Assembly (NCBI RefSeq): GCF_000153205.1
Contig: NZ_CH672427.1
Coordinates: forward strand, 1,706,326 to 1,770,325
Direction: 5' to 3'
Source: Nitrococcus mobilis Nb-231
GTDB taxonomy: Bacteria > Pseudomonadota > Gammaproteobacteria > Nitrococcales > Nitrococcaceae
Length of the DNA stretch: 64,000 nt
Positions within the stretch are counted from its first letter, which is position 1. Each line of letters starts with the position of its first letter. The notes below the pieces were generated by a model that worked only from the letters and a program-made list of their open reading frames with translations, ran no database searches and was not told the DNA's origin. Positions 4,182-59,235 of the stretch are shown piece after piece. The position numbers were made by a program, and so were the translations under genes.

Positions 4182-4248
4182 GCTTCGCAGTCACGCACGA
4201 TCGGCGAAGTATGTCCAGCCCCCGGAACCCCTTTTTGACACTTCTGTG

Positions 4249-36157: not shown

Positions 36158-36168
36158 AACGACGATTC

Positions 36169-37068: not shown

Positions 37069-37089
37069 GTCGCCCTCTCGAGGAATCCC

Positions 37090-38646: not shown

Positions 38647-38718
38647 AACCTCTTACGCTTTAAGATGCACGCTGTGGATACAATGTGGATTGCTTAGAGC
38701 TTGCTATATAACACGTCA

Positions 38719-39342
38719 CTATAGAAGCGATTCCGGTATGATGAGCACATCACCGGGCAGCACCTCGACATTGGCTGAAATATCCCCCCCCCTAAGCAGG
38801 TCGTTCAGACGAACCGCGTATTGTTTGCGCTGGCCATTAACAGAACGAATGATGCTCGCATCATTGCCGTTGGCGAATTCGGTCAGACCGCCAACGGCAA
38901 TCATGACGTCCATGACCGTCATACCTTTACTAAACTGCAAAGCTTGCGGCTCGGCCGCCTCACCCACCACCCGGATTTGACGACTGTAGGGGCCGACGAA
39001 CCCTGACAAGATCACGGTAACCACCGGCTGTTTGATATAGCGAGAGAGCGCCTTCTCAAGATCACGGGCGAGTTCGACCGAGGTCTTACCGGTGGCAGGC
39101 ACGTCTTCCACAAGCGGTGTATTGATGCGCCCATCTGGTGGAACCACGATCGAGGCGGACACCTCGGGGTTACCCCAGACGACGATCTCCATCGAGTCAC
39201 CTGGACCGATGATGTAGTGATCCGGCGCTCTCTCGGTGAGGGTCGTCGGCGCCGGCGGATAGCTCAAACCGCAGCCCGACGAGATCATCACCGTTAGAAC
39301 AACTGCCAGGCAAGCCATGGCAGCCCAACTTATCCTTAGCAT
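38719..39342 (-). CDS. XrtA-system polysaccharide export lipoprotein (Wza-like)
   Basis: From ATG 39342 (MLRISWAAMACLAVVLTVMI) 207 residues with a lipoprotein signal ending ISSGC, so Cys would be lipidated. The Poly_export domain reads YIIGPGDSMEIVVWGNPEVS, and a SLBB-type repeat follows (IRVVGEAAEPQALQFSKGMT). It is short compared with Wza, as usual for the exosortase-associated family TIGR03027. It is the first gene of the core transport group; the about 296 bases upstream up to PrsT likely hold its promoter. The longer frame from 39396 adds a hydrophilic stretch before the signal peptide and is not preferred. Confidence 0.9.
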   Translation of the reverse strand: MLRISWAAMACLAVVLTVMISSGCGLSYPPAPTTLTERAPDHYIIGPGDSMEIVVWGNPEVSASIVVPPDGRINTPLVEDVPATGKTSVELARDLEKALSRYIKQPVVTVILSGFVGPYSRQIRVVGEAAEPQALQFSKGMTVMDVMIAVGGLTEFANGNDASIIRSVNGQRKQYAVRLNDLLRGGDISANVEVLPGDVLIIPESLL

Positions 39343-39638
39343 GGCGAATCCCCCGTTCCATTTTCGCCCGGCTGATAACACCCGGTTACCTGTCATGCCT
39401 GAAAGTACGAATCACCGCTCTTTTATGATAGAGAGACGGGCCAATACGCCCGATTGCGTCGAACTGAGCGCTCCAGGGTAAAAAAACGACTGTCGCGATT
39501 ACTATATTATCGAATACTACAGTACAAGCTTGAGCGCAGCCCCATATACAAACCCGCCACGCATGCGCCGCCGCATCCTATGCGGTGGCAGATCCGCAAC
39601 GCAGTATGTAAGTAAGTAATAGCTTTGACATCATTGGC
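39343..39638. other. Intergenic region before the export operon
   Basis: Between the prsT stop and the export gene start. An A+T-rich stretch (about 39480-39530, with TATTATCGAATACTACAGTAC) could hold a promoter for the downstream minus-strand operon. A GC-rich inverted repeat near 39560-39600 (CGCCGCATCC TATGCGG) may be the prsT terminator region. I found no sigma54 consensus here. Confidence 0.35.
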
Positions 39639-42446: not shown

Positions 42447-42504
42447 TCCATTCTCCCCCGCCCGGTGTGACCCGGCTTTGGTGCCCTATCCCTTGCATTC
42501 CTCT

Positions 42505-43872
42505 TTAATCCACCGCCACGGTGCCTTTAAGGCCGTATTTGCTGAGCAATGAGTACAGCGTGGGTCGGCTGATACCAAGCAATTCGGCGGCTCGCGCGAG
42601 GTTGCCGTTGGCTTGACCGAGCGCTCGTGACACCGTACGCTGTTCGACTTGTTCCCGCGCTTCGCGCAGCCTCAACGAAGAGATTTCAGTTTCGCTGCAA
42701 GGCAAAGCCAGGTCGGCGGCCATTATACTGTTATACTCGGCCATGATAACGGCGCGGCGCAAAATATTCTCAAGCTCACGTACGTTTCCGGGCCATTCGT
42801 ACGCCTCAATCGCCGCCAGTGCATCGGGTGAGAAGCCTCTAAGACTCCGCCGATCCCGCTCGGCATACTTACGCAAAAAAGCATGCGCCAGCAGCGTCGC
42901 ATCCCCATCGCGCTCCCGTAAAGGCGGAATGGCGACAGTGATCTCGCTGAGTCGATAATAGAGATCCTCGCGAAACTCACCTTCCTCCAACATGGTCTTG
43001 AGATCACGGTTGGTGGCGCACACGACGCGGACATCAACCGGTATCTCACCTCGCCCTCCCAGCCGTTCGATCACCCGTTCCTGCAGAAAGCGCAACAACT
43101 TGGCCTGTAGCGCGAGGGGCAAATCACCGATTTCATCCAGGAATAGAGTGCCGCGATTGGCGTATTCGATCTTACCTTCGGTTTGGCGATTGGCCCCGGT
43201 AAATGCACCGCGCTCGTAGCCGAACAGCTCACTTTCCAGCAGCGTATCGGGAATGGAGGCGCAGTTGATGGCAACGAAGCGCTCGGCCTGCCGAGGGCTG
43301 AGCCGATGTAGAGCGCGAGCCAGAACCTCCTTACCGGTCCCGCTCTCTCCCATGAGCAGCACCGTGGCATTGACCGGTGCAACTCGCTCGATCATACGAC
43401 AGACCTGCAGCATCTGTGGCGAAGTAGCCACGATGCCCTCGAGCGGGCTCCGCGGTGCCTCAATCAGACGACGGTGTTCCTGCTGCAGCTCATAGAGGTT
43501 CTTGGCCCGATCGACGATTAGACGCAGCACATCCGCATCCACCGGTTTTTGATAGAAATCGTAGGCCCCTGCCGCCACCGCCCGCAGCGCCGTCTCGCGT
43601 TCGTCGTGACCAGTGACGACGATAACCTTCGTATGCCGCGAGCGAACCAGGATTTCCTCCAATGCCCGCAAGCCTTCCGAGGCATTCGCGGCATCCGGCG
43701 GCAAACCGAGATCGAGCAACACGACCGGGGGCTCGTGGAGGTCAACGATTCGCAGGGCTTCCTGTCGAGTCGAGGCCATCAATACATGATACTCACGAAA
43801 GCACCATTTGAGCTGGCGTTGCAGACCGGGGTCATCCTCGACGATCAATAGCTTCGGATGCGACTTAGCCAC
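42505..43872 (-). CDS. prsR: PrsR: sigma54-dependent response regulator of the PEP-CTERM system
   Basis: From GTG 43872 (VAKSHPKLLIVEDDPG) about 455 residues. The receiver domain (1-120) has the acceptor Asp at about 54 (VVLLDLGLPP) and Lys at about 109 (FYQKPVD). The AAA+ domain shows Walker A MGESGTGKE (about 174-182), the sigma54-contacting loop ERGAFTGA (about 220-227) and GTLFLDEIGDLPLALQAKLL. A Fis-type HTH ends the protein (GNLARAAELLGISRPTLYSL). The start overlaps the prsK stop by 8 bases. The intact GAFTGA loop says it activates sigma54 promoters; three candidates are present in this window (13802, 49667, 59236). Confidence 0.95.
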   Translation of the reverse strand: MAKSHPKLLIVEDDPGLQRQLKWCFREYHVLMASTRQEALRIVDLHEPPVVLLDLGLPPDAANASEGLRALEEILVRSRHTKVIVVTGHDERETALRAVAAGAYDFYQKPVDADVLRLIVDRAKNLYELQQEHRRLIEAPRSPLEGIVATSPQMLQVCRMIERVAPVNATVLLMGESGTGKEVLARALHRLSPRQAERFVAINCASIPDTLLESELFGYERGAFTGANRQTEGKIEYANRGTLFLDEIGDLPLALQAKLLRFLQERVIERLGGRGEIPVDVRVVCATNRDLKTMLEEGEFREDLYYRLSEITVAIPPLRERDGDATLLAHAFLRKYAERDRRSLRGFSPDALAAIEAYEWPGNVRELENILRRAVIMAEYNSIMAADLALPCSETEISSLRLREAREQVEQRTVSRALGQANGNLARAAELLGISRPTLYSLLSKYGLKGTVAVD

Positions 43873-45973
43873 GCAAGACCTCCCGATTTCCGCCCCCCCC
43901 CGACGTGGTGGGATCCGACTCGTGCACCGGCAACCGTAACACAAAGCAACTGCCTTCGTTGGGTGCACTCGTCACATCCATCAATCCCCCAAGCGCCTCG
44001 ACGAAATGGAGGGCTTCGTAGACCCCTATCCCCATTCCGGCATTACCCTTGGTGGTTTCGAAAGGACGGAACAAGCGCTCGCGGATGAACTCTTCGGCCA
44101 TTCCCGCCCCACTGTCCCGCACCTCCAAACGACACCACGAGTCTTCACGTGCAACACACAATTCAATCTCCCCTTCGGGCGGAGTCGCTTGCTGCGCATT
44201 GCACACCAAATGCTCCAAAATAATTGCCAGGCGCCCACGCGGACAATCCACGATTAACCCTGGCGTGTCGATCCGCACCCGGGGAACGGGTCGGTTGTTC
44301 GTCAAACCGCTGGCGACCTCTTCCAACAACTCGCCAATATCCACCGGCTCTGTAATTGCCAGCGGTGCATCCAGCTTGCGTAGATTCACCAAGACACGGT
44401 TCATCCGCTGCGTGGCGCTCTCGATCGTCCGAAAAGCATCCTCGACGAACTCCGGGTCGTCGCGGTATTGCACGGCATTAGCGGTTATCAATGACAGCTG
44501 GCCCGAGACATTCTTCAGATCATGCACGACGAACGCCGACAATCGATTGAATGCATCGAATTGCCTCGCATCGATAAGGGCATCGGTCGCGTCCAGATGC
44601 GCCACATAACTTGCGATCTGGCGGCCGGCCGTCTTGAGCAAATCGCGATCCTCCCAATTAATCTCCCGCCGCACCTTAGGGCGGCTGAGCACGATAAAGC
44701 CCTGAAGCCGATCCTGCAGCAGCAGAGGCAAAATCAACCATGGCTGGCGGAGTCTATCGAACCAATCCGGTAACGAGAGTTCGCCGTAGCGCTCGGGGTG
44801 CTCGCGGTATTCATCCAAATCAATGATCCACTCGCGTGATCGGAGGGTACGCACCAGCGAAGTATCGGCCGGCACCGTCACCATACCCGGAAACGAAATG
44901 TTCCAAGTAGCCGCCAAGATAAGGTTGCCGTGCTCGTTGGTGCTCCATAGCGCGCCGCTGGAGCTGTCCACGAGCTGTGCGATGGCACGCACGGCCCGTA
45001 TCCGCAACGCCTCTCCATGAATGGTTGCGGAGAGCGTACCGATAAAACGTAGCCACTCCTCGCGGTAGTCGTATTTATAAGAAAAAAAGTGCTTGGAGAC
45101 GAACACGCGTATCCAGGCGCGCAGGCTACCGGAGAAAAGCGCGACCAAAAACACGATCAACGCGCCAACCAGAAACATGATTTGCAGGGCACCACCCCAA
45201 CTACCACCGATATAGCGGATGGAATAGCCGGCAATGGCCATGATCAAAAGGTAGATACCCGCCCCGGTTATGACGACCGAGTCCACGACAATGCGTCGGG
45301 AAACCCCGATAGCCAACGACCATTTCGGGTTGCGGGCGGCAGAGACGGCAATGAGCGGCACGGCTACGGCATTGACGAGCCCTCGCGCCGCAAGCACCTG
45401 ATCGTTCAGCTCACCAAACAGCAATCCATCAGCATAGAGATAGAAGTCGAAGGTAAATACGACTCCAAGACCAAAGCATAAGTGCTTGATTCCCCAACGG
45501 TAATCTGGTTCGACTCGGCGGTAGAGTTGTTCGGTCAGCACCATTCCGAGCAGGTTTGCCAGCAACAGCCCGGCAAACCCAAGCATTGGCGGCAAGTGCA
45601 ACAACCCAGCGGTGATGACCCCTAGCGAGCCGCCGGTAAGCAATATAGCGAGCCCGGCCAGCAGCAGCCAGGGATCCGAGCTCAGTGGCCGCCGGATCGA
45701 TTGAGGCCACGACAACCGCAGCAGCACCGCCAGAAAACACAGCCAACCGGCGCACCTCAGAAACTCGAGCAACGGGACAAGCCAACGGAAAGCAGCGAAT
45801 GACCACAAACTGCTTAAGCTGTAAACTGCCCCCCAGCAAGCGCACAACAATACGGCCAGCAGCAGGATGACGCCCCGGGAAAGCCCGCGAAAGCCTGCAA
45901 GAAGTAACCCGAACAATAGCGTATAGGCAACTGCCGCAACTCCATAACTAACGGCAGCAACCGATATCGCCAC
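43865..45973 (-). CDS. prsK: PrsK: PEP-CTERM system sensor histidine kinase
   Basis: A 702-residue membrane kinase. The first about 290 residues carry eight to ten hydrophobic segments (VSYGVAAVAYTLLFGLLLAG onward). A GAF-like domain follows (ALRIRAVRAIAQLVDSSSGA). The dimerisation/phosphoacceptor helix is AFVVHDLKNVSGQLSLI (His about 487), and the ATPase domain has LVCNAQQATPPEGEIEL (N box) and DSGAGMAEEFIRERLF then GMGIGVYEALHFVEAL (G boxes). Layout matches TIGR02916. It should phosphorylate PrsR. The signal is unknown, but a polytopic sensor implies a membrane or envelope cue. About 366 bases separate it from the ATPase gene, so it may have its own promoter. Confidence 0.93.
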   Translation of the reverse strand: MAISVAAVSYGVAAVAYTLLFGLLLAGFRGLSRGVILLLAVLLCACWGAVYSLSSLWSFAAFRWLVPLLEFLRCAGWLCFLAVLLRLSWPQSIRRPLSSDPWLLLAGLAILLTGGSLGVITAGLLHLPPMLGFAGLLLANLLGMVLTEQLYRRVEPDYRWGIKHLCFGLGVVFTFDFYLYADGLLFGELNDQVLAARGLVNAVAVPLIAVSAARNPKWSLAIGVSRRIVVDSVVITGAGIYLLIMAIAGYSIRYIGGSWGGALQIMFLVGALIVFLVALFSGSLRAWIRVFVSKHFFSYKYDYREEWLRFIGTLSATIHGEALRIRAVRAIAQLVDSSSGALWSTNEHGNLILAATWNISFPGMVTVPADTSLVRTLRSREWIIDLDEYREHPERYGELSLPDWFDRLRQPWLILPLLLQDRLQGFIVLSRPKVRREINWEDRDLLKTAGRQIASYVAHLDATDALIDARQFDAFNRLSAFVVHDLKNVSGQLSLITANAVQYRDDPEFVEDAFRTIESATQRMNRVLVNLRKLDAPLAITEPVDIGELLEEVASGLTNNRPVPRVRIDTPGLIVDCPRGRLAIILEHLVCNAQQATPPEGEIELCVAREDSWCRLEVRDSGAGMAEEFIRERLFRPFETTKGNAGMGIGVYEALHFVEALGGLMDVTSAPNEGSCFVLRLPVHESDPTTSGGGGNREVLRG

Positions 45974-46340
45974 GCCTACTGTTACCCCGCCAAGACCACT
46001 TAATAGAATGTTTAACTAAACAACAAGCCGCTTCCCAAGCAAAGGCTCATACACAGCAGATATTAACGTGCGACTTAGCGGCTACCATGCCTCTAAATCA
46101 CCTTAGGAAATCTTATTCGTCAGCCCGAGGCAGCCCATCCGGGAGCCGCTGTAGCACAAAAGTCATTAATTTTACTAGAGGTACGCACACGCCCATTGGC
46201 ATACGCTCTTGTTAGCCAGTTAAAGCTGCTCACAAGACAAGGGGGAGGGACACGTCGACCCTACTCACACGCGCTGCTCGGTAACGTGAGAGTTCCGGGA
46301 TGCAGCAGATTAGTCTCTGTCAAGAACAGTCTACCGTGCC
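45974..46340. other. 367-bp intergenic region upstream of prsK
   Basis: No gene is recognised. It contains an A+T-rich piece near 46005-46025 with an imperfect palindrome (GTTTAACTAAAC), possibly a regulatory site for prsK-prsR. TGGCATACGC at about 46197 resembles a -24 element but lacks a GC-containing -12. Confidence 0.35.
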
Positions 46341-47813
46341 TCAATTTACCGCAGGATCAGGGCCAACGACCGAGCGACCGTTTGCGCTCTTATCCCGCAT
46401 AGCCGCCCTATTAACGACGAAATCGCGTTTGCTCTGCACCTGCTCACCAAAGCCCAATACAGAGGCGCTCATCTCAGCACCGCCACCCTCTGGAAAAGAA
46501 AGATGCAACTGGCTGCCTGCAAAAACGAGGATCGTCGCCAACAGCAAAAAGCCGACCACTCCGAACAACAGCAGCCCCTTGCGTCGGGGGAAACGGCCCA
46601 GATCAATAGCCCCAGCCTTACGATTACGCTCGTCCGGAATGATTCGCTGATCCGGATCGGACCTGAGTTCGTGCACAAAAACCCGCTGCGAAGCCGTTAC
46701 CCGAATGTCCGGTTCCAGTTCTGGTTCCGGGCCACCCGGCTCAAACCCTTGCGGTTGCCATGCACCGCGGGAGTCATGCAGCGCCGTTGAGCGCGAAACA
46801 GGCGTCCAATCGGAATCCACTGCTGGATCGGGTAGCGCACCAATTACCGGTTCACGCCGAGTGGACCGGTCCTCTTCTGGCGTATCTCCCCGCACGAAAA
46901 GCTCATCATCAGATGGCTCATCCCATCCGCTCCGGCGCTCCTCGGGAGCCTCGGGCAACTCTTCAAGCAGCTTGTCCACATCTTTGATGTCCGCCGAGAG
47001 CAGCATCTCGTCGCGTAAATCTTCAATGACTGCCCGCATATCGGCAAGCTGGAAATTACGCTTCTCTTCGACAAAACCGTACATGAGCAAACGGCTCAGC
47101 ACCTGATTGATGCGCCGAGGAATGCCGCCGCTCAGACGGTAAATCATCGCAAGCAGCGCTGACTCGAAGCTCGGATCACCTTGCCAGCCGACCCGTTCCA
47201 GCCGATGACAAATGTAAGCCTCGGTCTCTTGCCCGTTCAGAGGTGCGAGATGGCAGGCCGCAATCATACGCTGATGGAGTTGCTCCATAACCGGTTGGCG
47301 AACCATCTCTCGCAGCGGCTCCTGGCCGACCAGAAAAACCTGAAGCAGCGACTGCCCCTCCTTTTCCAGATTGGTCAGGAAACGCAACTCCTCCAACGCC
47401 GACTCCGATAACCCCTGGGCTTCATCCACCACGAGAATCGCCCGGCGCTTCGAACGGTAATCCTGATCCAGGCTGCGAATGATCTGGCGCAGCAGCGACG
47501 CCTTGTCAAGATTATCGCCCTGCAGCGAGAGCTTGAAGGCGATCATGCGGATGAGCTCACTGCCTTCCAGCTGGGTGCTGTTAAGCTGAATCACCCTGAG
47601 CCGGTGTTTACGCAAATCGGCTAACAGATCATAGATCAGCGTCGTCTTGCCGGTACCGGGCCGGCCGGTAACCATGACGAAGCCTTCCGCCCGCTGCACG
47701 CCGTACTCCATGTAGGCTTTGGCTTTGCGGAAGCTGCGGTGGCGAAAACAGAACCGATAGTCGGGTGTCAGTCGAAACGGATCACCGGTAAAGCCAAAAA
47801 AGCTCTCGTACAT
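46341..47813 (-). CDS. XrtA-associated ATPase (ExeA/GspA-like)
   Basis: From ATG 47813 (MYESFFGFTGDPFRLTPDYR) about 490 residues. The AAA domain has Walker A MVTGRPGTGKTTLIYDL (about 45-60) and Walker B AILVVDEAQGLSESALEELR. The start motif YExFFGfxxxPFrltPdp is shared by ExeA-like ATPases and the PEP-CTERM ATPase family TIGR03015. After an acidic linker (about 290-400) there is one TM segment (LLLFGVVGFLLLATILVFAG, about 430) and a short periplasmic tail. It may power or regulate export. It lies about 100 bases downstream of the priming transferase. Confidence 0.9.
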   Translation of the reverse strand: MYESFFGFTGDPFRLTPDYRFCFRHRSFRKAKAYMEYGVQRAEGFVMVTGRPGTGKTTLIYDLLADLRKHRLRVIQLNSTQLEGSELIRMIAFKLSLQGDNLDKASLLRQIIRSLDQDYRSKRRAILVVDEAQGLSESALEELRFLTNLEKEGQSLLQVFLVGQEPLREMVRQPVMEQLHQRMIAACHLAPLNGQETEAYICHRLERVGWQGDPSFESALLAMIYRLSGGIPRRINQVLSRLLMYGFVEEKRNFQLADMRAVIEDLRDEMLLSADIKDVDKLLEELPEAPEERRSGWDEPSDDELFVRGDTPEEDRSTRREPVIGALPDPAVDSDWTPVSRSTALHDSRGAWQPQGFEPGGPEPELEPDIRVTASQRVFVHELRSDPDQRIIPDERNRKAGAIDLGRFPRRKGLLLFGVVGFLLLATILVFAGSQLHLSFPEGGGAEMSASVLGFGEQVQSKRDFVVNRAAMRDKSANGRSVVGPDPAVN

Positions 47814-47911
47814 AAGCCGTGTCGCCACTCCCTTGCCAAAATGCTATTACGAGGCTATCGGCATAGTCGGTAGCCTTTCTCGCCGTCACCCTGCGTTAGC
47901 AAGGGATCAGG

Positions 47912-49322
47912 CTATCGGGCACCTTTACCCCACAGAACCACCTCCACAGTTTGGAATAGAATATTAAGATCGAACAGCAGATTGTGGTTTTTGGCGTAAT
48001 AGAGATCGTACTGCAACTTCTCGAAAGCATCACGCTCTGAAGCACCATAAGGGTAGCGCACCTGCGCCCAACCGGTTAACCCAGGCTTCACCCGATGTCG
48101 CTCGGCATAGTACGGAAATCGAGCCGACAATGTGGACACAAACTGCGGCCGCTCCGGGCGCGGTCCGACGAAGCTCATTCTACCGGAGAACACATTAAAA
48201 ATCTGCGGCAGCTCATCAATCCGGTATTTGCGGATAAGAAGTTTCCTGACCCACCCGAGTGATCCGCGAATCACATTTGGATGCCCAGCGGGGTTTGCCG
48301 TCGCTCTCGGCATCAACCTGCATACTGCGGAACTTCAGAAGCTCAAAGGGGATCCCCTCTTCGCCGATGCGCATCTGCCGGTACAGCACCGGCCCACGCC
48401 CGCCGCTCTCCAGCCAGATAGCCAACGCGGCAACAACCATGACGGGTGCCGTGGCAATCAGCAACATGAGGCTGGCGGCGATATCGAACAGCCGCTTACC
48501 CCACCGCCGCAGCAGCCGCCGATTGAAACCCGGAGAGAATATCAGCCAGCCGGCATCCAGAGCATCCAGCTTGAGCAACCCCAACTCCTGCTCGATAAAC
48601 GTGGCGAGCTCTACGACATCGACCCCCCCGGTACGGCATTCCAGAAGCTGTTCCATAGGCAGGCCCACGCGCCTATCGTCTACGGCAATGACCACCTGAT
48701 CCACATGGTGGCGCGCGGCATACCGCGGAAGCGGCTGATCCAGGGAAACACAACGCCTGTCTGGCACGACCACCGCCTCTCCCGGCATCTGAACGAAACC
48801 GACGAAGCTTACACCGATGAAATCCGTGGAGCGGCGGAATGACAAGATGTGGCTCGCTCGGTTGCCGGCGCCCAACACCAAGACACGGCGGCGATTATTG
48901 CCTTGGCGCAGAAGACGCAAGTAGCCCGCGCGCAAGGTTCCAAGTGCAACCAACGCAACGAGCAGCGAGAGGCCAAATACGCCCCGCCCCAAATAAAGAG
49001 AGGGAAACGTATAGAACAACAACATCATGAGGATGCCTGCCAAGCTCAGCGCGATTACGAGACGCACCAGCACACCGGGGAAGTTATCCCGGAGTCTTTG
49101 ATTATATAATCCAACCGCAACCAGACAGGCCACGCCGATCAGTGCGAAGCTCAACGCCCTCGGCCAAATAGGTGTCAACTCGTCCACGGACGCCACGCTC
49201 AGATCGCCGAACCGGATCAGCGTGCCAACATACAGCGATGCCCCCAACAACAACGGTTCAATGATAACTAGGATGGGTAGCAGGCGCCGATGGTAATTTC
49301 CCACTATCCTTTCCAGAATCAT
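47912..49322 (-). pseudogene. Priming polyprenyl glycosylphosphotransferase (EpsB_2 type), frameshifted
   Basis: The N-terminal frame (ATG 49322, MILERIVGNYHRRLLPILVI) has four TM segments, a CoA-binding-like domain (RRVLVLGAGNRASHILSF), a fifth TM (FDIAASLMLLIATAPVMVV) and the start of the catalytic sugar-transferase domain (GPVLYRQMRIGEEGIPFELL, KFRSMQVDAESDG). It runs out after CDSRITRVG. The catalytic end is in another frame: KYRIDELPQIFNVFSGRMSF, VGPRPERPQFV, VKPGLTGWAQVRYPYGASER. The break is near 48240-48250. Together they equal one TIGR03013-type protein of about 465 residues. This enzyme should start repeat-unit assembly on undecaprenyl phosphate, so the break would silence the pathway unless recoded, replaced elsewhere, or a sequencing error. 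Confidence 0.85.
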
Positions 49323-49511
49323 GCCTTCACTGTCTCCACTGTCTCCACCTCGCCACAAAGCCCCCAACCCAGAGCCACCCTCAGCCAACGGATTCAAACA
49401 CCCAGGCCGCGCGCGTTAGTCCAATGATCAGTATCCTCACGCGCTTTGTGTCGCGACGTCACAGTTGTATCAATGAGCATAGCTCATTTTACTGCCGTTG
49501 CTGAACACAAA

Positions 49512-49707: not shown

Positions 49708-50499
49708 GTGAATACCGATTTTGACAATAAATTTTCCACACGGAAAGTGAATCAATCCACATTTTATTATGAAAGAAATGAATCAATGCTAAAGAAACAC
49801 TACGCAGTATATATTGCTGATACGGGCCTAGCGCGCACTATCCACCACCACCTTCGCTACCGCGTCTATTGTGAGCGCAAGCAGTACGAAAATCCCATCG
49901 ACGCCACAATTCCAGAGGAACACGACAGCCATGATGCTTTCGCCACTCACTTCATTGTACGCAATGGCGGAAACTGGCAAGGAACCGCACGGCTGATCAT
50001 GAGTACACGCACACAACTCCCCGTGCAGAAGATGGGCGCACTCTACCCACAGGCAGAGCAGCAGCTCCTCAGATTACCGGTTGCCGAAGTATCCCGCCTA
50101 GCCGCGCTGCGCAGCGCCTGCCGATGGTCACCGAGCAACCGGCATTTATTACAAGCGACCATAACCGGGCTGCTCGACTACAGCCACCGGCGTAGCATTG
50201 AGCATCTGATTTTCCTGATTTCGCCCGGGCTGGCGCGTATTCTTGCGCGCATAGGCGTGCCGATGGAGGAATGCGGACCGAGCGTAGAACACAGAGGACA
50301 GCGCCAAGCGTTCAGCGCCTCAGTTGCACAGGCCATTGAAAATATCCCCTGGGTTCGCCGAAACCTAAAGGCCGGGCGCTGCTGCCACTACTTCTCGGAG
50401 TCTACGTTTGCTCATGCAGATAATGAGTCTTGGGTCACTGGCGCTGCGCTCGAGGGAACAGCCGGCTTGGCTCATCAGCAGGCCGCACCGGCAATGTGA
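49708..50499 (+). CDS. PEP-CTERM/exosortase-associated acyltransferase 1 (N-acyl amino acid synthase-like)
   Basis: A 263-residue LuxI/GNAT-like protein: HLRYRVYCERKQYENPI (the RYxVYC motif of the family), HDSHDAFATHFIVRNGGNW, GTARLIM, and VAEVSRLAALRSACRWSPSN (ExSRxA motif). It matches family TIGR03694 by memory. Members of this group have been linked to long-chain N-acyl amino acid synthesis. GTG 49708 follows the sigma54 start site; ATG 49786 (MLKKHYAVYIADT) is an alternative closer to the family start. It is divergent from the polysaccharide operon. The acyl donor (acyl-ACP or acyl-CoA) and acceptor are unknown. Confidence 0.85.
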   Translation: MNTDFDNKFSTRKVNQSTFYYERNESMLKKHYAVYIADTGLARTIHHHLRYRVYCERKQYENPIDATIPEEHDSHDAFATHFIVRNGGNWQGTARLIMSTRTQLPVQKMGALYPQAEQQLLRLPVAEVSRLAALRSACRWSPSNRHLLQATITGLLDYSHRRSIEHLIFLISPGLARILARIGVPMEECGPSVEHRGQRQAFSASVAQAIENIPWVRRNLKAGRCCHYFSESTFAHADNESWVTGAALEGTAGLAHQQAAPAM

Positions 50500-51027: not shown

Positions 51028-52014
51028 ATGCACTTGGCAAAACTGCTCCCGGTGGCAGTCAAGGAAGATAAGTCCAGGCTCCCGCCGCAATTGCTAGAGA
51101 AGCTGAAGCCACTCAAGACACGCCGACCGGGGCGTTTCCTGCTGGAACTCGTTGGTGCCTGGCTGGTGATATTCTCCGTTATCGCTCTCGCCGTGCATCT
51201 CGATCACTGGCTTATGACCGTGACAGCCATACTGCTCGTAGCCACTCGGCAGAATATCCTCGGCCTACTAGTACATGATCAGGCCCACTGCACCGGTTTT
51301 AAGCCCTACCCGGGCGACATTATTGCAAACCTGTTCGCGGCCTATCCCTTGATGGTTCTCACGGTAGAAGGCTACTCCAGGATTCACCTGACTCACCACG
51401 CAAAATATTTTACTGAGCAGGATCCCGACCATATTCGCAAGTCCGGGGAAGAATGGAACTACCCGATGCGGACAGCTCAGTTCCTGAAAATACTGGGGGG
51501 AGACTTACTTGGTCTGAATGCCATCAAACTGATCAAGGGCAAACAGGCAGCACCCAAGGGCAGGGTCTTTGTCAGGCAGAATCGAGTGCCCCGATGGTTG
51601 CGCCCAGCCTATTACTTGCTGCTCGCCACTATTCTGACCGCGACAGGAACATGGGGCATTTTCCTGCTTTATTGGGTGCTACCGCTGGTCACAGTCTTCC
51701 AGCTCATCGTGCGCTGGGGGGCGGTATGCGAACACCAGTACAATAGACTGGGCGCTAGAGTCCAGGAAAACACACCGCTGATCACCATGCGCTGGTGGGA
51801 GCGGCTGTTATTGCCAAACCTTAATTTCAGCTACCACATCTACCACCATTATTTTCCCGGCATCAGTTTCAGCCAGTTGCCCAAAGTGCATGATGTTTTT
51901 GTCAGGCATGGGCTGGTCGATGACGAGGCAGTATTCCATGGCTATTGGAGTTACCTGAGGTTCATATTATCGCCCGGAACGGACAGTGATCGCGGCGAAA
52001 GTACACGACAATAA
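51028..52014 (+). CDS. Membrane fatty-acid desaturase-like protein
   Basis: A 328-residue integral membrane protein with the three histidine boxes of the di-iron desaturase/hydroxylase family: LVHDQAHCTGF (about residue 88), RIHLTHHAKYF (about 116) and YHIYHHYFPGISF (about 270). Hydrophobic pairs separate them (GAWLVIFSVIALAVHLDHWL; ILTATGTWGIFLLYWVLPLV). It would desaturate or hydroxylate an acyl chain or other lipid substrate. It lies between two acyltransferase genes, which suggests the acyl group they use is modified by it. The ATG at 51028 follows GGGGTGG at a suitable distance. It converges on acyltransferase 2, 36 bases away. Confidence 0.85.
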   Translation: MHLAKLLPVAVKEDKSRLPPQLLEKLKPLKTRRPGRFLLELVGAWLVIFSVIALAVHLDHWLMTVTAILLVATRQNILGLLVHDQAHCTGFKPYPGDIIANLFAAYPLMVLTVEGYSRIHLTHHAKYFTEQDPDHIRKSGEEWNYPMRTAQFLKILGGDLLGLNAIKLIKGKQAAPKGRVFVRQNRVPRWLRPAYYLLLATILTATGTWGIFLLYWVLPLVTVFQLIVRWGAVCEHQYNRLGARVQENTPLITMRWWERLLLPNLNFSYHIYHHYFPGISFSQLPKVHDVFVRHGLVDDEAVFHGYWSYLRFILSPGTDSDRGESTRQ

Positions 52015-52050: not shown

Positions 52051-52851
52051 TCATTTCACCGGCTGAGCGGTAGCCCGGGGCACAAACCGGCCTCGATCGG
52101 TGACGATTTCCCATATATCGGGGCGCTTGCACAGGATGCCGCCGACGACCGTGGTCGCTGCGGCCAAAGTCGGCCGGCGCAAGCCATGATGCTCGACCAA
52201 CGGAGCAATGGGCGGAAAATGGATACCAAAACGCTGCAGCAGCCGCAGCAGCGTGGGCTCCATGACCGCGAACCAATGGGTAATGTCTTGGTCGACGGAC
52301 ATACGAACGATCGCGGCAAATAACCCCAAGGTTATGTGCGGGAACCCGCGTCTTCGACTATCCGGCCCCTGCGCATCTGAGTAAACGGCTTGCGCGCTGA
52401 CACCGGAGACCGTTTCGGCTTCCCCGAGGCGGCGCCGGAACGCTTTGGACACGGCGAGCCGGGAGATCTCGGCCACCTTGTGCCGGTCGAGATCGGCGAT
52501 CCAGGGTTTGGCCTCCTCATAGAGGCTGTTCGTGCAGGCCTGCTCGAGCGGAAATGCCGTTTCGGGGTGGCGACGGTCCGGCAAAACCAGCCGGACGGCG
52601 GCCGCACAATCGCCAGTGCGCTTGTGGCGAACCAGCGTGTGGACGGCTCGGGCGTCGTACTCATCCCACTCCCTGCCATCGAGATGCTCCTGTGGGTTTT
52701 CAAAGGGATGCTCGACACAATAGACTTGATAACGCAATGCGAATACTTCATCAAGCAGCGCGCTCGTATCCGCTGGAATGATCTCGAAGTAATTATGGAA
52801 TGCGCGATAAACTTCGCTCGGTGGATTCGTGGCAGAGCCTTCTAGCTGCAT
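52051..52851 (-). CDS. PEP-CTERM/exosortase-associated acyltransferase 2
   Basis: From ATG 52851 (MQLEGSATNPPSEVYRAFHN) 266 residues. Family motifs: ALLDEVFALRYQVYCVEHPF, DARAVHTLVRHKRTGDCAAA, VRLVLPDRRHPETAFPLEQA, KVAEISRLAVSKAFRRR (ExSRxAxs) and GLFAAIVRMS. It is of the same TIGR03694-like family as 49708-50499 but clearly diverged, so the pair may use different acyl donors or acceptors rather than being a recent duplication. This copy has the fuller typical sequence. It is convergent with the desaturase gene; no sigma54 site was seen upstream. Confidence 0.87.
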   Translation of the reverse strand: MQLEGSATNPPSEVYRAFHNYFEIIPADTSALLDEVFALRYQVYCVEHPFENPQEHLDGREWDEYDARAVHTLVRHKRTGDCAAAVRLVLPDRRHPETAFPLEQACTNSLYEEAKPWIADLDRHKVAEISRLAVSKAFRRRLGEAETVSGVSAQAVYSDAQGPDSRRRGFPHITLGLFAAIVRMSVDQDITHWFAVMEPTLLRLLQRFGIHFPPIAPLVEHHGLRRPTLAAATTVVGGILCKRPDIWEIVTDRGRFVPRATAQPVK

Positions 52852-53026
52852 AAACGGCTTCCTACTACCAAGGTTGGCTAAAAGCGGGGCAGACACCACG
52901 CCCATTATGTCATGTGCATCCGGTCAGCTACCGAGAGCTTCCCATGTCACAAACAATAACGACCGCAAAGCAGTGCGTTTGAGACCCACCTCTAAGAATG
53001 AAAGAAAACAGGTTCTATTGTCTTAG

Positions 53027-53034
53027 AAGCTGTC
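53027..53034 (+). repeat. IS66 copy 2 left target duplication
   Basis: AAGCTGTC, identical to 55028-55035. An 8-bp duplication is the usual size for IS66-family elements. Confidence 0.9.
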
Positions 53035-55027
53035 GTAACTTCTCATTAACCCCTGGTACAGAAGTGTCAAAAAGGGGTTCCGGGGGCTGGACATACTTCG
53101 CCGATCGTGCGTGACTGCGAAGCATGAGCACGAGCGGTCCTCGCAAGCTTCCTCAGATCAGCGACTTTCCGCCGCAGGAGGTCACCCCGGCGGTCCTGCT
53201 GCTGGAGATCTGCTATCAGCTGCATGAGGAGAACCAGGCGCTGCGCGATGAGATCGCGCGCTTGAAAGGCGGCAACCCGAAGCCGCCGATCAAAGCCTCG
53301 AAGCTGGAGAGCGCGGAACAAGATGCCGAGAGGCACAAGGACAAACGCCGAGGTAAGCACAAACGCAGCAAGACCCAGCGCCTCGAGATCCACGATGAGA
53401 TCGTGGTCGCGCCCGTGCCGGCACCGCCTGCGGGCAGCCGGTTCAAGGGCTACGATGAGTTCACCGTCCAGGATCTGCACATCGGCGCACACAACACCCG
53501 CTATCGGCTCGAACGTTGGGTGACGCCACAGGGCGAGATGCTGCGTGGGCCGCTGCCGGTGCAGCTCGGTGGCGGACACTTCGGGCCGCGGCTGCGCGCG
53601 TTCATCCTCTATCAGTACCACCATGCCCACGTCACCCAGCCGCTGCTGCGCGAGCAGCTCGGCGAATGGGGCATCGAGATTTCCGCCGGCTAGCTCAATT
53701 GGCTCATCACCGAGCCGCACGCGGCCTTTCACACCGAGAAGGAGGCGCTGCTGCGCGTCGCCCTGCAATGCAGCAAGTTCGTCCATGTCGACGACACCGG
53801 CGCCCGTCACCAGGGTCGCAACGGCTTCTGCACCCACATCGGCAATGAGCTGTTCGCCTTCTTCGCGAGCACGGCCTCCAAGAGCCGCATCAACTTCCTC
53901 GAGCTGCTGCACGCTGGCGACGAACGTTACCTTATCAACGATAAGGCGCATGCTTACATGCTCGCCCAAGGGCTGCCACAGGCGCCGTTGGCGAAGCTCG
54001 CAGCGCTCGAGCCGAGTGCGATCGAGGATTACGCCGCGTGGCAGACTACGCTCAAGCGCCTTGGGATCAGCAACGAACGCCATGTGCGCATCGTCACCGA
54101 GGGCGCCCTGCTCGGTGCGGTGATCGCCACCGGGATCAACCCCGAGCGGGTCATCGTCAGCGACGACGCCGGACAGTTCAATGTCCTGACTCACGCGCTG
54201 TGCTGGATCCATGTTGAGCGCGGCATCCAGAAACTGCTCGGCTTCAACGCCGATCAGCGCGCCGCACTCGCCTGGGCGCGTAGCGAGCTCTGGGCGATCT
54301 ATCAGGCGCTCAAAGCCCATAAGGCCGAGCCGAACGCCACGGCACGTGGTGCGATCGAGGCCCGGTTCGAGGCGCTGTGCACCACCAAGACCTGCTTCGA
54401 GAGTCTTAACCGCGCGCTCGAGCGCTTGCATAACAGTGGTGCCGAGTTGCTGCGCGCCCTCGATCGCCCCGAGATCGCGCTGCACAACAATCTCGCCGAA
54501 CGCGACATCCGCGAGTACGTCAAAAGGCGTAACAGCGGCTCGACCCGCAGCGCCGCCGGCCGGCGCTGCCGCGATACCTTCGCCAGTCTCGAAAAGACCT
54601 GCCGCAAGCATGGCCTCTCGTTCTGGGCCTATCTGCTCGACCGGCTCGCCGGCGCCAGCACAATCCCGTGGCTGCCGAGCGCGATCTTCGGCGCACACAG
54701 CGAGCCTGCTGCGATCAACTACGCACATCCCTCGGCCGGCCCCTGAAGCCGTGCGCTTGCCCAGCCGCGTTACGGTTATCGGTCCGCGCGCCTAGAGACC
54801 TTCGTCGAGCGGCCGCGCTTGCGCGGCGCCGCCGACCAAGCCGCGAACTGGCATCGAGTCGGTGAGATCCCAGGGTCGGGGCAAGCTCGACGTCCATCAA
54901 ATGCCGAGACTAAACACCTAAGAAAGCCGTCTGGGTCTATCCCTTACGGCGCGAGTTCCGGTGCATCATGTGCGCAGTGGAGCTCAGTACCTAAGCGTCG
55001 GCACGCCCGGGGTTAATAAGAAGTTAC
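53035..55027 (+). mobile_element. IS66-type element, copy 2
   Basis: The 1993-bp element is bounded by GTAACTTCTCATTAACCCC (left) and the inverse of GTAACTTCTTATTAACCCC (right), with perfect 8-bp target duplications AAGCTGTC. It is almost identical to copy 1 (2272-4270) but inverted. The clean duplication shows a simple transposition event here. The target was the tip of a 64-bp sequence that also occurs at 61505-61568. Confidence 0.92.
53124..54746 (+). CDS. IS66-family transposase interrupted by one in-frame amber codon (copy 2)
   Basis: 541 codons from ATG 53124 to TGA 54746 with only one internal stop, TAG at 53691-53693, at the same place as in copy 1. Reading on in the same frame gives LNWLITEPHAAFHTEKEALL, then HVDDTGARHQGRNGFC, the conserved metal-binding part of the DDE_Tnp_IS66 domain. 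As separate products the 190-residue N-terminal part would bind DNA ends but lack the catalytic core. If the C-terminal part starts at ATG 53958 (MLAQGLPQAPLAKL), it lacks the first catalytic Asp. Full activity therefore needs amber read-through or suppression. Codon use on both sides of the TAG is alike. Confidence 0.85.
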
Positions 55028-55091
55028 AAGCTGTCTTGTTAAAACGCTGTTATTTATCATATGAATATATTTAAATCTCACACAAGGGATC
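55028..55091 (+). repeat. 64-bp inverted repeat, left copy
   Basis: It starts AAGCTGTCTTGTTAAAACGC and ends CTCACACAAGGGATCC. It matches the reverse complement of 61505-61568 with two mismatches. It looks like the end of an IS5-type element; the flank before it (CTTAG, before the IS66 target) is a YTAR-like target. The two copies enclose 6.5 kb with the ThiF-nitroreductase and PEP-CTERM genes. Confidence 0.8.
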
Positions 55092-55573
55092 CGCAACGCC
55101 CCGGCTTTCCCCTGCGTTTTGCCGAGGAAGAGCACCCCTTCCTCACCCTGGAACACCGTGAGGTAGCGCTGAGCGAGAGCGTCTTTGCGCTTGCCCTTCT
55201 TGAAGGGCACGACGTCGATGCCCCCTTGCCTGGCAAATCGATCTATGGCCGCCACGAAGGCTCGGCTCATCGGCGCCATCAACGACGAGGAGGCGAACGG
55301 GTACCCTCGGTGCTGGCGAAAGAAGTAGGCGATCCCGCCTTCGGTTTGCAGCATCGGCTGGTAGACGTTGAGATACATCCGATCAATGCAAGTCACTTCC
55401 AGCGTGGTGTGTTCACCGAGAACCTCAGCAACGCTTCGTGCTACGCTCATCTCGGGCTCCGGCTGCATGGCCTCCCTCAGGCCCAATGAGGCCACCATCG
55501 CCTGTAGCGATCGATCACACAGTGCCCACACCGTGGCAGCGAGGCACCGGCCGGAGCCCACGCAACACCACAC
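55092..55573 (-). pseudogene. N-terminal fragment of a transposon-associated conserved protein
   Basis: The minus-strand frame reads TLEVTCIDRMYLNVYQPMLQ, GGIAYFFRQHRGYPFASSSL, MAPMSRAFVAAIDRFARQGG and DALAQRYLTVFQGEEGVLFL. This resembles the start of a large conserved protein of unknown function seen in many genomes near insertion sequences. Only about 155 residues remain. At 55091 the sequence passes into the 64-bp repeat, and the frame runs on into IS66 DNA. I know of no established function. Confidence 0.6.
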
Positions 55574-55676
55574 CTATCCGAGGGGCTACAACTCGTCGGC
55601 CTGAGGCGAAGCCTCGTTAGTGATAGCACAAGCGACACCAATGCCCCTAAGGACATATGGAATGGAGGCTTATATC

Positions 55677-57680
55677 ATGGATGAGAGGTTCGACTATCAG
55701 CTCGCCTTCTCCCGCACCGTTGGCTGGGTTACGCGGGAAGAGCAAGCAATTCTGCGCTCGAAACGGGTAGCCATCGCTGGATTGGGCGGCGTGGGCGGCA
55801 GCCACTTACTCACGTTGACTCGGCTCGGCATCGGCGCGTTCACGCTGGCAGAAATGGATCACTTCGAGCTAGAGAATTTCAACCGCCAGGCAGGGGCGTT
55901 TCTATCCACCGTGGGCCGGCCGAAGCTCGACGTCCTGAGCGGGATGGCTCAGGGCATCAACCCAGAGCTAAATATCCGCACTTTCCCCGAGGGCATCAGC
56001 GGAGAAAATCTTGACGATTTTCTGGCGAATGTTGACCTCTACGTCGACAGCCTTGATTTCTTCGAACTCGATATCCGGCGCAAAGTCTTCGCCGCCTGCG
56101 CCGAGCACGGCATCCCCGCCATCACGACGGCGCCGCTCGGCATGGGCACGGCGGTATTGGCGTTCCTGCCTGGGGGCATGACTTTCGAGCAGTATTTCCG
56201 ACTCGAGGGTCACCCCCCCGAGGAACAGTATTTGCGCTTTCTTCTCGGCCTCTCTCCAGCCAGGCTCCAGATGGGCTACCTGGTGGAGCCATCCGCGGTG
56301 GATCTCGCTGCGCACCGTGGTCCCTCGACACCTATGGCCTGTGCACTCTGCGCGGGAATCGCCGGCACCGAAGCGCTCAAAATATTGCTTAGACGCGGCC
56401 GTGTCATCATGGCGCCACACGGTTATCATTTCGATGCCTACCGCCAACGGCTGGCGCGTACTTGGCGCCCCCTCGGCAATCGCAACCCGATCCAGCAGAC
56501 GGCGCTCGCGGTCGGACGAAAACGATTCGGCCAAGCCTTGCGGGCGGAACGCCCGGTGACGACCCCGTTCTCCGAGTCCCCCACGCCGACAGCACTGCGG
56601 ATACTCGATCTCGCCCGCTGGGCGCCGAGCGGTGACAACACCCAGCCCTGGCGCTTCGAAATCATCGACGGTGATCATATCGTAGTGCATGGCCACGATA
56701 CGCATGAAGACACCGTCTACGACCTACAAGGTCATGCGAGCCAGCTTTCGCTCGGCATGCTGCTGGAGACCCTATCAATCGCAGCCACGCAATTCGGTCG
56801 CCGAGCCGAAATCATGCGCCGACAGCATCTGCCCGACAGAACACCCACCTTCGACGTCCATCTACACATGGAACCACCCCAAGCCGCCGACGTGCTTGCG
56901 CCATTCATTTGCGCCCGTACCGTTCAGCGCCGCCCCATGCGCATGCGCCCCCTGCGGCCAGATGAGCGCAAGGCGCTGGAAACAAGTCTACCTAAACCTT
57001 ACAAGGTGGTGTGGCTGGAAAGGCTCAGCAGCCGTCTGCGGGTAGCCTCGCTGCTGTCACAGAACAGCAAACTCAGGCTGACGATTCCGGAGGCCTACGA
57101 CGTTCACCAGCGAATCATCCGCTGGAACATCCGCTTCAGCGAAGACGGCATCCCGGACGCAGCCCTGGGAGTGGATATACTCACCCGGCGCCTCATGCGC
57201 GTACTGATGAAGAGCTGGAAGCGGGTCGATTTCGCCAACCGCTATCTCGCCGGCACATGGATGCCACGGCTTCAGCTCGACTGGATTCCTGGGATCGCGT
57301 GCGCGGCCCATTGCCTGATCGTTGCCGACCGTAGGCCGGCGGGAATCGACGACTTCGTCCGTGCTGGCCGCGCTATCCAACGGTTCTGGCTCACCGCGAC
57401 CCAGCTTGACCTCCGCCACCAACCCGAACTCACGCCGCTGGTGTTCTCCGAGTATGTGCGGGACGGGATAGCGTTCTCTGAGACGACGGGCTCGATGTCG
57501 TTGGCAAAGGCGGTCACGGAGCGACTGCGTCGGCTCGTCGGCGGGGAAAATGCCGAACGGGCGATCTGGATGGGACGACTCGGGGCGGGTAAGATGCCGA
57601 CGAGCCGGTCGATCCGGCGGCCGCTACAAGATTTGATGATATCATCGACAGGAACCATAGATCGGGTTAGCAAAACATAA
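55677..57680 (+). CDS. ThiF/E1-like adenylyltransferase fused to a nitroreductase domain
   Basis: From ATG 55677 (MDERFDYQLAFSRTVGWVTR), which has GGAGG nine bases upstream, 667 residues. Residues about 1-280 are a ThiF/MoeB/E1 fold: ATP-binding VAIAGLGGVGGSHLLTLTRL (about 32), then DHFELENFNRQAGAF with the conserved Asp and Arg, VDSLDFFELDIRRKVF, TTAPLGMGTAVLAF, and one CxxC (ACALCAG). Residues about 320-600 are nitroreductase-like: ILDLARWAPSGDNTQPWRFE (FMN-binding start) and LSLGMLLETLSIAATQFGRR. The architecture resembles Rv1355c-type proteins. An adenylating enzyme joined to a flavin oxidoreductase suggests activation of a carboxylate followed by redox chemistry. The substrate is unknown. 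It lies between IS-derived repeats and beside the PEP-CTERM gene. Confidence 0.8.
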   Translation: MDERFDYQLAFSRTVGWVTREEQAILRSKRVAIAGLGGVGGSHLLTLTRLGIGAFTLAEMDHFELENFNRQAGAFLSTVGRPKLDVLSGMAQGINPELNIRTFPEGISGENLDDFLANVDLYVDSLDFFELDIRRKVFAACAEHGIPAITTAPLGMGTAVLAFLPGGMTFEQYFRLEGHPPEEQYLRFLLGLSPARLQMGYLVEPSAVDLAAHRGPSTPMACALCAGIAGTEALKILLRRGRVIMAPHGYHFDAYRQRLARTWRPLGNRNPIQQTALAVGRKRFGQALRAERPVTTPFSESPTPTALRILDLARWAPSGDNTQPWRFEIIDGDHIVVHGHDTHEDTVYDLQGHASQLSLGMLLETLSIAATQFGRRAEIMRRQHLPDRTPTFDVHLHMEPPQAADVLAPFICARTVQRRPMRMRPLRPDERKALETSLPKPYKVVWLERLSSRLRVASLLSQNSKLRLTIPEAYDVHQRIIRWNIRFSEDGIPDAALGVDILTRRLMRVLMKSWKRVDFANRYLAGTWMPRLQLDWIPGIACAAHCLIVADRRPAGIDDFVRAGRAIQRFWLTATQLDLRHQPELTPLVFSEYVRDGIAFSETTGSMSLAKAVTERLRRLVGGENAERAIWMGRLGAGKMPTSRSIRRPLQDLMISSTGTIDRVSKT

Positions 57681-57789
57681 GCCAGCGCCTTTCTACTACC
57701 CTATCAACGCCTTTTCCGGTTCAGCCTTTTCCAAAGACGCATGAGCCTGAAAAAGGGGCGCGATTCCAGGAGAGGTGAGCCTGAAGAGC

Positions 57790-58050
57790 CGGGTTCTGGG
57801 ATCATCCGGAGGATGATCGTGAACCTCGGTGCCCCCGCCGCATTTGCACTCACGGCTTCCGGGTAGTATCGGGTTTCAGCTCTTTTGGCGCCCCTCACCC
57901 AGGCGTGCCTTCCTCGTATGCAGTTCCTGCTCGTCGGGCCGGGAAGTTTGCCTACAGCTGCCTTCAGATCCCGCCTCGCGGCAGACACCCTTGCCGTTCG
58001 GCTAACGCTTCCCGCTACCAGGGGTTCGCAGGAAACTTCCACCTCAAGTC
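57790..58050 (-). other. Group II intron domain I-like fragment
   Basis: Read on the minus strand: GGTAGCGGGAAGCGTTAGCC, AACGGCAAGGGTGTCTGCCG, then GGATCTGAAGGCAGC and CGACGAGCAGGAACTGCATA. This order is typical of the 5' domain I of group II introns; intron 1 in this window shows a diverged version of the same order (AAGGCAAGGGC, TCTGAAGGAAGC). No GTGYG start, RT gene or domain V is found nearby, so it is a leftover. The open frame across it (57704-58042) is taken as spurious. Confidence 0.5.
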
Positions 58051-58083
58051 ATCCCCGCCGCCGCCACCACAGTGACCGGAACA

Positions 58084-58118
58084 GCGCCAGTCATGGCGCG
58101 TAGCGCCTTGACTGGCGC
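58084..58118. repeat. 35-bp hairpin
   Basis: GCGCCAGTCA ... TGACTGGCGC with an inner GGCGC-GTA-GCGCC stem. It is a near-perfect palindrome just behind the PEP-CTERM terminator, and could be a second terminator stem or a REP-like unit. Confidence 0.6.
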
Positions 58119-58122
58119 ATAC

Positions 58123-58156
58123 AAAAAAGAAAGGGAAGCGGATGCCCCCCTTTCTT
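58123..58156 (-). terminator. Rho-independent terminator of the PEP-CTERM gene
   Basis: On the minus strand AAGAAAGGG, a short loop, CCCTTTCTT, then TTTT. It stands 22 bases beyond the stop codon at 58178. Confidence 0.8.
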
Positions 58157-58177
58157 GCTAAGAGTACCCGAATGGTT

Positions 58178-59191
58178 TCAGCTAGCTTTGTAGCGTCGGA
58201 TGAACCCCAACCCTAATATTCCAACTCCTAACAGGGCCAAGACGCTTGGCTCGGGCACCGCCTTCGCAGCATCAGCCTCACTGGAAGACCGGATGGCAAG
58301 CTGATAGTCGGTACCAGCAGTCAAAGCAACCGTCGTTGCGCTGAAAGCACCCGCATTGGCAGTGCCCAAAGCAAGGCCCCTGAAGCTAGCCCCGTTAAAC
58401 GGCGCGTTCCGGGAAACACTGTCATTCAGGCTGAAAGGATCTGTCTCCGCAGTGAGACCAAATGCAGACGGACCGCCAACATCAGCTCCTCCATTCGGTG
58501 CCCATGTGACCACATTTGCTCCGGTATCGAGGTTATCAATAGTAAAGATTAGGCTGTAGGCTGCAGAAGCGTTGGTCGGAAAGATTGCGTCCGCGTTGGT
58601 AAAGGCTTCCAGATAGGCCTCAGCGTCATAATCGATAATTAACGGACCACCCGAGCCCAGTGCAAAATTGAAACTAACATTTAATCCATTATTAGCTTCG
58701 GCAGAACCAGTGTCGACCTCAGTGAGAGAAACATAGGCGCCGTGGCTCGCCTCAGCGCCCGCAACAGCTGGCCCTATGCCGGTTATGGGCGCGCCATCCT
58801 GAAGCTGATCCGATGCGGCAAAGTGAGCTGAGGGATCTCCTAATGCACTGCTCTTAATAGGGAAGCTGTTATTGGGGGCTATACCTGGGCACCCGCTACC
58901 TTGACACGCGATGGGCAGGTCGATCCCGACGGCCGGGTTCACGCCAACGTTAGCTGAACTTCCCGCCGCACCGGCAACAGAGGCCAACGAGGCTGTGGTA
59001 TCTGCGGTACTATTACCACTGAGGGCAGTAAAATCGGAGATATCTAACACTCCACCCGCGTCGGAGATCGTCAAGTCAGTGAGTCTTAATACTGACGTGC
59101 CAAGAGCGCCGGCCTGGGCGGACCCAGCGAACCCCACAGCGGTCAGCCCACCGACCGCTGCCGCGAGAACTGACTGTTTGAATTTGTTCAT
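58178..59191 (-). CDS. PEP-CTERM sorting-domain protein (exosortase substrate)
   Basis: From ATG 59191 (MNKFKQSVLAAAVGGLTAVG; GGAG eight bases upstream; an ATG two codons earlier is an alternative) 337 residues. The signal peptide ends near GSAQAG. The mature part is rich in Ala, Ser, Asp and Asn and low in charge (ASLASVAGAAGSSANVGVNP). The C-terminus is a full PEP-CTERM: KAVPEP, then the TM stretch SVLALLGVGILGLGFI, then RRYKAS. XrtA (28483-30105) should cleave after the PEP region and attach or release it at the surface. A sigma54 promoter (59236-59251) and a terminator (58123-58156) make it a single-gene unit. The mature domain family is not recognised. Confidence 0.93.
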   Translation of the reverse strand: MNKFKQSVLAAAVGGLTAVGFAGSAQAGALGTSVLRLTDLTISDAGGVLDISDFTALSGNSTADTTASLASVAGAAGSSANVGVNPAVGIDLPIACQGSGCPGIAPNNSFPIKSSALGDPSAHFAASDQLQDGAPITGIGPAVAGAEASHGAYVSLTEVDTGSAEANNGLNVSFNFALGSGGPLIIDYDAEAYLEAFTNADAIFPTNASAAYSLIFTIDNLDTGANVVTWAPNGGADVGGPSAFGLTAETDPFSLNDSVSRNAPFNGASFRGLALGTANAGAFSATTVALTAGTDYQLAIRSSSEADAAKAVPEPSVLALLGVGILGLGFIRRYKAS

Positions 59192-59235
59192 TGTCATCTC
59201 TCCACCATTGAATTAGTACTGATCGATAATTTATA

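Follow-up and report, generated by a model that had tools for sequence, protein, structure and literature searches.

A single gene in a 64,000-nucleotide stretch of the Nitrococcus mobilis Nb-231 genome (contig NZ_CH672427.1, positions 1,706,326 to 1,770,325; the window) codes for a 667-residue protein that joins an N-terminal ThiF/E1 domain to a C-terminal flavin-dependent oxidase domain of the nitroreductase superfamily. Its domains, residues, predicted structure, neighbours and co-occurrence with exosortases make it very likely that this protein is a bifunctional enzyme of the OxzB/TrzS type, belonging to a pathway of small lipids. The fusion is real and well conserved and represents a known type of enzyme; the kind of locus it occupies was already known to hold part of the pathway. 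What is new is a measure of how consistently its ThiF subfamily sits in exosortase loci: the link is real, conserved and beyond chance, and its conserved core consists of acyltransferase, ThiF protein and exosortase.

Enzymes of this type are known from several bacteria. In Pseudoalteromonas rubra, as PMC12856293 and PMC10404671 relate from the work of de Rond et al., OxzA N-acylates tyrosine or phenylalanine; its product is then turned into N-acyl oxazolones by OxzB, a fusion of ThiF and nitroreductase that performs both the cyclisation and the desaturation. The same reactions are carried out in vitro by Mycobacterium tuberculosis enzymes, both split (TyzA/TyzB/TyzC) and fused (TrzA/TrzS), with ATP-dependent cyclisation and O2-dependent desaturation demonstrated biochemically (PMC10404671, PMC12856293). 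Characterised homologues give free small molecules (PMC12856293), and in the oxzAB, trzAS and tyzACB layouts the acyltransferase stands beside the ThiF gene (PMC12856293, PMC10404671, PMC12479983). A link between N-acyl amino acid synthases and exosortases was described by Craig, Cherry and Brady in 2011 (as cited in PMC7293339), and the Stieleria maiorica cluster has a PEP-CTERM gene inside it and exopolysaccharide (EPS) genes upstream (PMC7293339). Why such synthases occupy exosortase loci has been a question since 2011. An earlier sequence-only reading of the window held that a modifying system of this kind would be new; fusion plus N-acyltransferase is in fact the published OxzAB/TrzAS architecture (PMC12856293, PMC10404671), and the acyltransferase-exosortase link, as cited, had also been reported.

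The reading frame (55677-57680, forward strand) is uninterrupted over 667 amino acids. A longer start is offered by GTG at 55620; ATG at 55677 (MDERFDYQ) is the point where relatives align. Pfam models place ThiF at residues 17-262 (E=1.4e-38) and Nitroreductase at residues 307-335 (E=8.7e-8), and the NCBIfam ThiF model PRK08223 (NF006077) covers residues 2-287 above its cutoff (1.8e-128, 428 bits vs 266). The fusion is no assembly artefact, because two same-genus genomes hold full-length fusions, 53-55% identical, at the same locus. The E1-nitroreductase fusion seen by the sequence-only reading is thus upheld, as are its two motifs, GLGGVGG and the DHFELENFNRQ region, whose core residues are invariant in relatives. 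Across 43 homologues the ThiF domain invariably retains G35, G37, G38 and G40 of the GLGGVGG loop, D61, N67, N69, R70, Q71, K83 and D124; across 26 homologues the flavin mononucleotide (FMN) domain retains P317, S318, D320, N321, Q323, R414, R418, R467, W514, R569 and W571. The glycine-rich loop, arginine, lysine and aspartate expected for adenylation are therefore all present. D124 aligns with the conserved aspartate of Escherichia coli ThiF (1zfn), through which its equivalence to TrzS D217 was drawn. An AlphaFold2 model built from an 11-sequence alignment (mean pLDDT 82, pTM 0.56) has two domains, which Foldseek matched to ThiF (1zfn/1zud) and to the Acg homologue 2ymv; the top match in the PDB was AclA (9egb), and E1-fold matches include MccB and PaaA.

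Association of the ThiF subfamily with exosortases

Of 398 other Pseudomonadota genomes sampled from the phylum (the phylum sample), 15 have a PRK08223-type ThiF domain and 383 do not. An exosortase of any kind (above the TIGR02602 cutoff) accompanies it in 13/15 genomes, vs 53/383 of the others (p=2e-9); for XrtA the counts are 8/15 and 26/383 (p=5e-6). XrtA alone understates the link, because loci lacking a match to its model (such as L061 and L062) have another exosortase gene about 3 kb off. These p-values overstate independence, since the genomes are akin and 9 of the 15 carriers come from a single family (f12); exosortase-holding carriers are spread over five families in the phylum sample, plus f1 and f5 among relatives. 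In 9 of the 13 genomes the exosortase nearest to the ThiF gene is 3-45 kb away; three have it on a different contig, and in one it is 372 kb off. Among 59 relatives, strong ThiF matches occur in 11 genomes, 10 of them also with strong XrtA; 2 more have a strong XrtA without such a ThiF match.

The neighbourhood is conserved as well. A TIGR03694/FeeM-like acyltransferase lies within about 5 kb of the ThiF gene in 13 of the 15 phylum-sample loci and in most other loci too, and a PEP-CTERM protein gene is near it in many loci, its family varying between genomes. The exosortase link proposed by the sequence-only reading holds: with conserved neighbours and exosortases in 13 of 15 ThiF carriers, the opposite pattern, a fusion widespread without exosortases amid unconserved neighbours, is not what was found. 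A gene for a PrsT-like tetratricopeptide repeat protein is also often a few kb from the ThiF gene, even outside the main EPS locus (L060-L066, L068, L070, L071, L089, L090).

We considered PRK14851 as a marker of a separate, OxzB-type set. It selects the same 16 phylum-sample genomes as PRK08223 and therefore separates no exosortase-free type. On plasmids, the only matches to the fusion were distant ones in Nitratidesulfovibrio and Bdellovibrio. No paper directly linking oxazolone enzymes, or ThiF, to exosortases was found in a literature search that was itself incomplete; a single paper mentions both terms, in contexts that have nothing to do with each other.

In a tree of 42 ThiF domains, two of whose rows stand on very long branches and are unsurely placed, the fused form takes 5 changes, at least 2 of them forced by well-supported branches. 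The tree indicates that gain, splitting or loss of the fusion took place on more than one occasion. The ThiF domains of L085 and L086, from bins of one study (OFTM) labelled Porticoccus and Nitrosomonas, are nearly identical (branch lengths about 0.01), through either recent transfer or contamination of the bins; those of L074 and L075 (labelled Gallionellaceae and Methylophilaceae) look identical likewise.

The locus in Nitrococcus mobilis

The fusion gene lies 26 kb from xrtA. Two N-acyl amino acid synthase genes, NAS1 and NAS2, adjoin it on the upstream side, with an insertion sequence (IS) of the IS66 family intervening in this genome (Table 1). Both acyltransferases of exosortase type noticed in the sequence-only reading were matched by TIGR03694, NAS1 just under its cutoff. 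So was the adjacent PEP-CTERM protein by its own family model; its end, read at 59191, is the second methionine of the open reading frame (ORF). For the desaturase-type gene between the two synthases a tailoring role is possible.

Table 1. Features of the fusion gene and its surroundings (window positions)
Feature	Position	Strand	Basis
OxzB/TrzS-like ThiF cyclase - flavin-dependent oxidase fusion, 667 aa	55677..57680	+	profile matches, homologous fusions
ThiF/E1 domain, residues 17-262	55725..56462	+	Pfam, residue conservation
Acg-type FMN nitroreductase / flavin-dependent oxidase domain, residues ~304-655	56586..57641	+	profile matches, fold match 2ymv
EDSAP-1 family PEP-CTERM protein (exosortase substrate), convergent with fusion gene	58178..59197	-	E=2.3e-73, above cutoff
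NAS2, TIGR03694 N-acyl amino acid synthase-like acyltransferase	52051..52905	-	267 bits vs cutoff 112
NAS1, second FeeM/TIGR03694-like acyltransferase	49708..50499	+	101 bits vs cutoff 112, just below
Fatty-acid desaturase-type membrane oxidoreductase, between NAS1 and NAS2	51028..52014	+	profile match, relatives compared
Exosortase A (XrtA), EpsI-type C-terminal domain	28483..30138	-	above TIGR03109 cutoff
Remainder of XrtA/EPS locus: PrsT, PrsR, PrsK, chain-length determinant, EpsB, others	34580..49397	-	
IS66-family insertion between NAS2 and fusion gene	53034..55026	+	97.5% identical to copy at 2272-4270
Additional foreign DNA (~600 bp) upstream of fusion	55027..55618	.	comparison with relatives' upstream region

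The two same-genus genomes show the arrangement without insertion: EpsB, NAS1, in one of them (L030; absent from L029) the desaturase-type gene, then NAS2 as the divergent neighbour of the fusion gene, followed by a PEP-CTERM gene at the same place, but a different one. In N. mobilis homology to the relatives' upstream region restarts only at about 55619, 58 bp ahead of the fusion ATG, which means that the inserted DNA breaks up the original divergent promoter region. IS66 and the other DNA stand between NAS2 and the fusion, which makes it uncertain whether the gene is expressed in this strain. The priming glycosyltransferase EpsB, encoded in the XrtA locus (47915-49397, reverse strand), is frameshifted near 48240 relative to the 473-residue protein of L030, either by genuine mutation or by sequencing error.

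Insertion sequences abound at the locus: two near-identical IS66 copies (2272-4270 and 53034-55026) and one IS701 transposase (59871-61211). ORFs resembling reverse transcriptases or group II intron maturases were recognised by eye at 222-998 (reverse strand) and 6214-8888 (forward strand), the latter apparently broken by transposase ORFs. Elsewhere, at L027:9705-12208 (G000:C1 about 1982.7-1985.2 kb), the fusion occurs again as a truncated copy (residues ~205-582, DNA 99% identical). That site also carries a copy of the EDSAP-1 PEP-CTERM gene (94%); the stretch between the two copies is deleted, and transposase genes of ISCR clade Ia adjoin.

Proposed pathway and competing readings

Because the adenylation residues and the flavin-domain motif are kept in all relatives compared and the folds match ThiF and an Acg homologue, we infer for the fusion the reactions of the published enzyme type. 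One or both TIGR03694-type acyltransferases would N-acylate an amino acid, probably tyrosine or phenylalanine, with a fatty acyl chain from acyl-acyl carrier protein or acyl-coenzyme A. By analogy with OxzB, TyzB and TrzS, the ThiF domain would then use ATP to adenylate this N-acyl amino acid at its carboxylate, and attack by the amide oxygen would close the ring, giving an oxazolone (azlactone) and AMP. The FMN domain would finally introduce an alpha,beta double bond with O2, yielding an acyl-tyrazolone or acyl-phenazolone; hydrolysis of this product may in turn give an N-acyl dehydro-amino acid, for example a thalassotalic acid or a stieleriacine. As the fusion and acyltransferase genes belong to an exosortase/EPS locus, the product, which could be a surface-active lipid or a signal, probably serves the matrix or the biofilm. 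Should the ThiF cyclase be part of the acyltransferase-exosortase unit, the end product of that pathway in many exosortase bacteria becomes predictable, namely an N-acyl oxazolone or N-acyl dehydro-amino acid.

Several observations weigh against this reading. The protein is assigned to neither of the two NCBIfam families of fused proteins: it scores 385 bits (4e-115) vs a cutoff of 1170 for the ThiF-nitroreductase fusion PRK14851 (NF011424), and 163 bits (8e-48) vs 476 for the Rv1355c family (NF005901). Comparison with the mutated TrzS residues (D217, R540, Q651) is indirect: the invariant R467 falls near the position that family-profile offsets give for the TrzS arginine. A flavin-domain model found a match in 3 of 16 ThiF-positive genomes and none at E<=1e-6 in 13, figures that give no frequency for all carriers, since these genomes were mostly picked for having no oxidase near the ThiF gene, and from a model that could miss a divergent oxidase. 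The oxidation step is therefore not universal in the ThiF subfamily, and the constant part is the cyclase, not oxidation. Finally, the upstream IS66 insertion and the EpsB frameshift may leave the pathway weak or silent in this genome.

This last point leads to the view that the gene in N. mobilis is a relic of a locus broken by insertion sequences, its pathway no longer working, which would be compatible with OxzB/TrzS-type activity for the family. IS66 and other DNA reach to 58 bp ahead of the start codon, an ISCR-linked truncated copy exists elsewhere and EpsB is frameshifted; the 667-residue frame is nevertheless intact and retains every invariant residue, and we regard decay of the gene as unlikely. 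The scarcity of detectable oxidases (absent from 13/16 checked carriers) beside a stable core of acyltransferase, ThiF and exosortase/PEP-CTERM favours another possibility, that ThiF activates an N-acyl amino acid for attachment within the exosortase/EPS pathway, with a PEP-CTERM protein, polysaccharide or lipid carrier as acceptor. On this view the oxazolone would be a mere activated intermediate and the flavin step optional. Oxazolones do act, in general chemistry, as reactive acyl donors. No transferase or acceptor was identified, however, Mycobacterium has exosortase-independent homologues, and the products of characterised homologues are free small molecules (PMC12856293), so that attachment seems quite improbable. 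Its strongest form, in which ThiF of exosortase loci joins an N-acyl amino acid to an exported PEP-CTERM protein or EPS and free oxazolone is not the main product, is in our estimate very unlikely; so, to the same degree, is the corollary that this would be an undescribed lipidation linked to sorting by exosortase, to which some lineages, including the present one, have added an optional flavin oxidase.

The sequence-only reading had left three targets open: the sorted protein, its C-terminal product and a small acyl-amino acid. The last fits the known enzymes; for the other two there is no evidence. MccB and PaaA share the E1 fold and a PEP-CTERM gene is adjacent, which would suit a ribosomal peptide, or the cleaved C-terminal peptide of the PEP-CTERM protein, as substrate, modified as in azoline/azole ribosomally synthesised and post-translationally modified peptides (RiPPs) or by E1-like enzymes such as MccB and PaaA. 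Yet the constant neighbours are N-acyl amino acid synthases, not peptides, the adjoining PEP-CTERM families differ by genome, and neither a precursor gene, as already remarked from the sequence, nor a YcaO cyclodehydratase was seen among the region's ORFs, by inspection not aimed at YcaO or short ORFs. A peptide substrate is thus extremely unlikely, and the RiPP-type reading was dropped for want of a visible precursor and for the constancy of the acyltransferases. The azoline/azole analogy is unnecessary. A small acyl-amino acid product is favoured over RiPP-like or protein modification because the architecture is known and TIGR03694-type acyltransferases adjoin.

Comparison with known systems

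The pair OxzB/OxzA, compared here by description, resembles the window genes in its fusion of ThiF to a nitroreductase-type flavin oxidase, its adjoining N-acyltransferase gene and its occurrence in Pseudomonadota; the window genes differ in sitting in an XrtA/PEP-CTERM locus. TrzS/TrzA (Rv1355c/Rv1356c) and TyzB/TyzC/TyzA combine the same two domains, fused or split, with an N-acyltransferase. TrzS is, however, Trp-specific, and the window protein is its distant relative (163 bits vs the Rv1355c cutoff of 476). Mycobacteria are not known to have an exosortase locus.

For its C-terminal domain, the fusion shares fold and family with the Acg/Rv3131 FMN oxidoreductases (2ymv), which are stand-alone proteins of unassigned function; it stays below the cutoff of the Acg family in NCBIfam (1.8e-32, 113 bits vs 199). 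The stieleriacine, thalassotalic acid and kyonggic acid clusters (PMC12479983, PMC7293339) likewise unite an N-acyl amino acid synthase with ThiF and nitroreductase, there as separate genes, and the Stieleria cluster has methyltransferases, of which none was seen at the window locus. The exosortase-associated N-acyl amino acid synthases (TIGR03694) are of the same acyltransferase family and in the same kind of locus. As cited from Craig 2011 that link concerns the acyltransferase; the present analysis adds a measurement of how ThiF and flavin oxidase genes take part in it.

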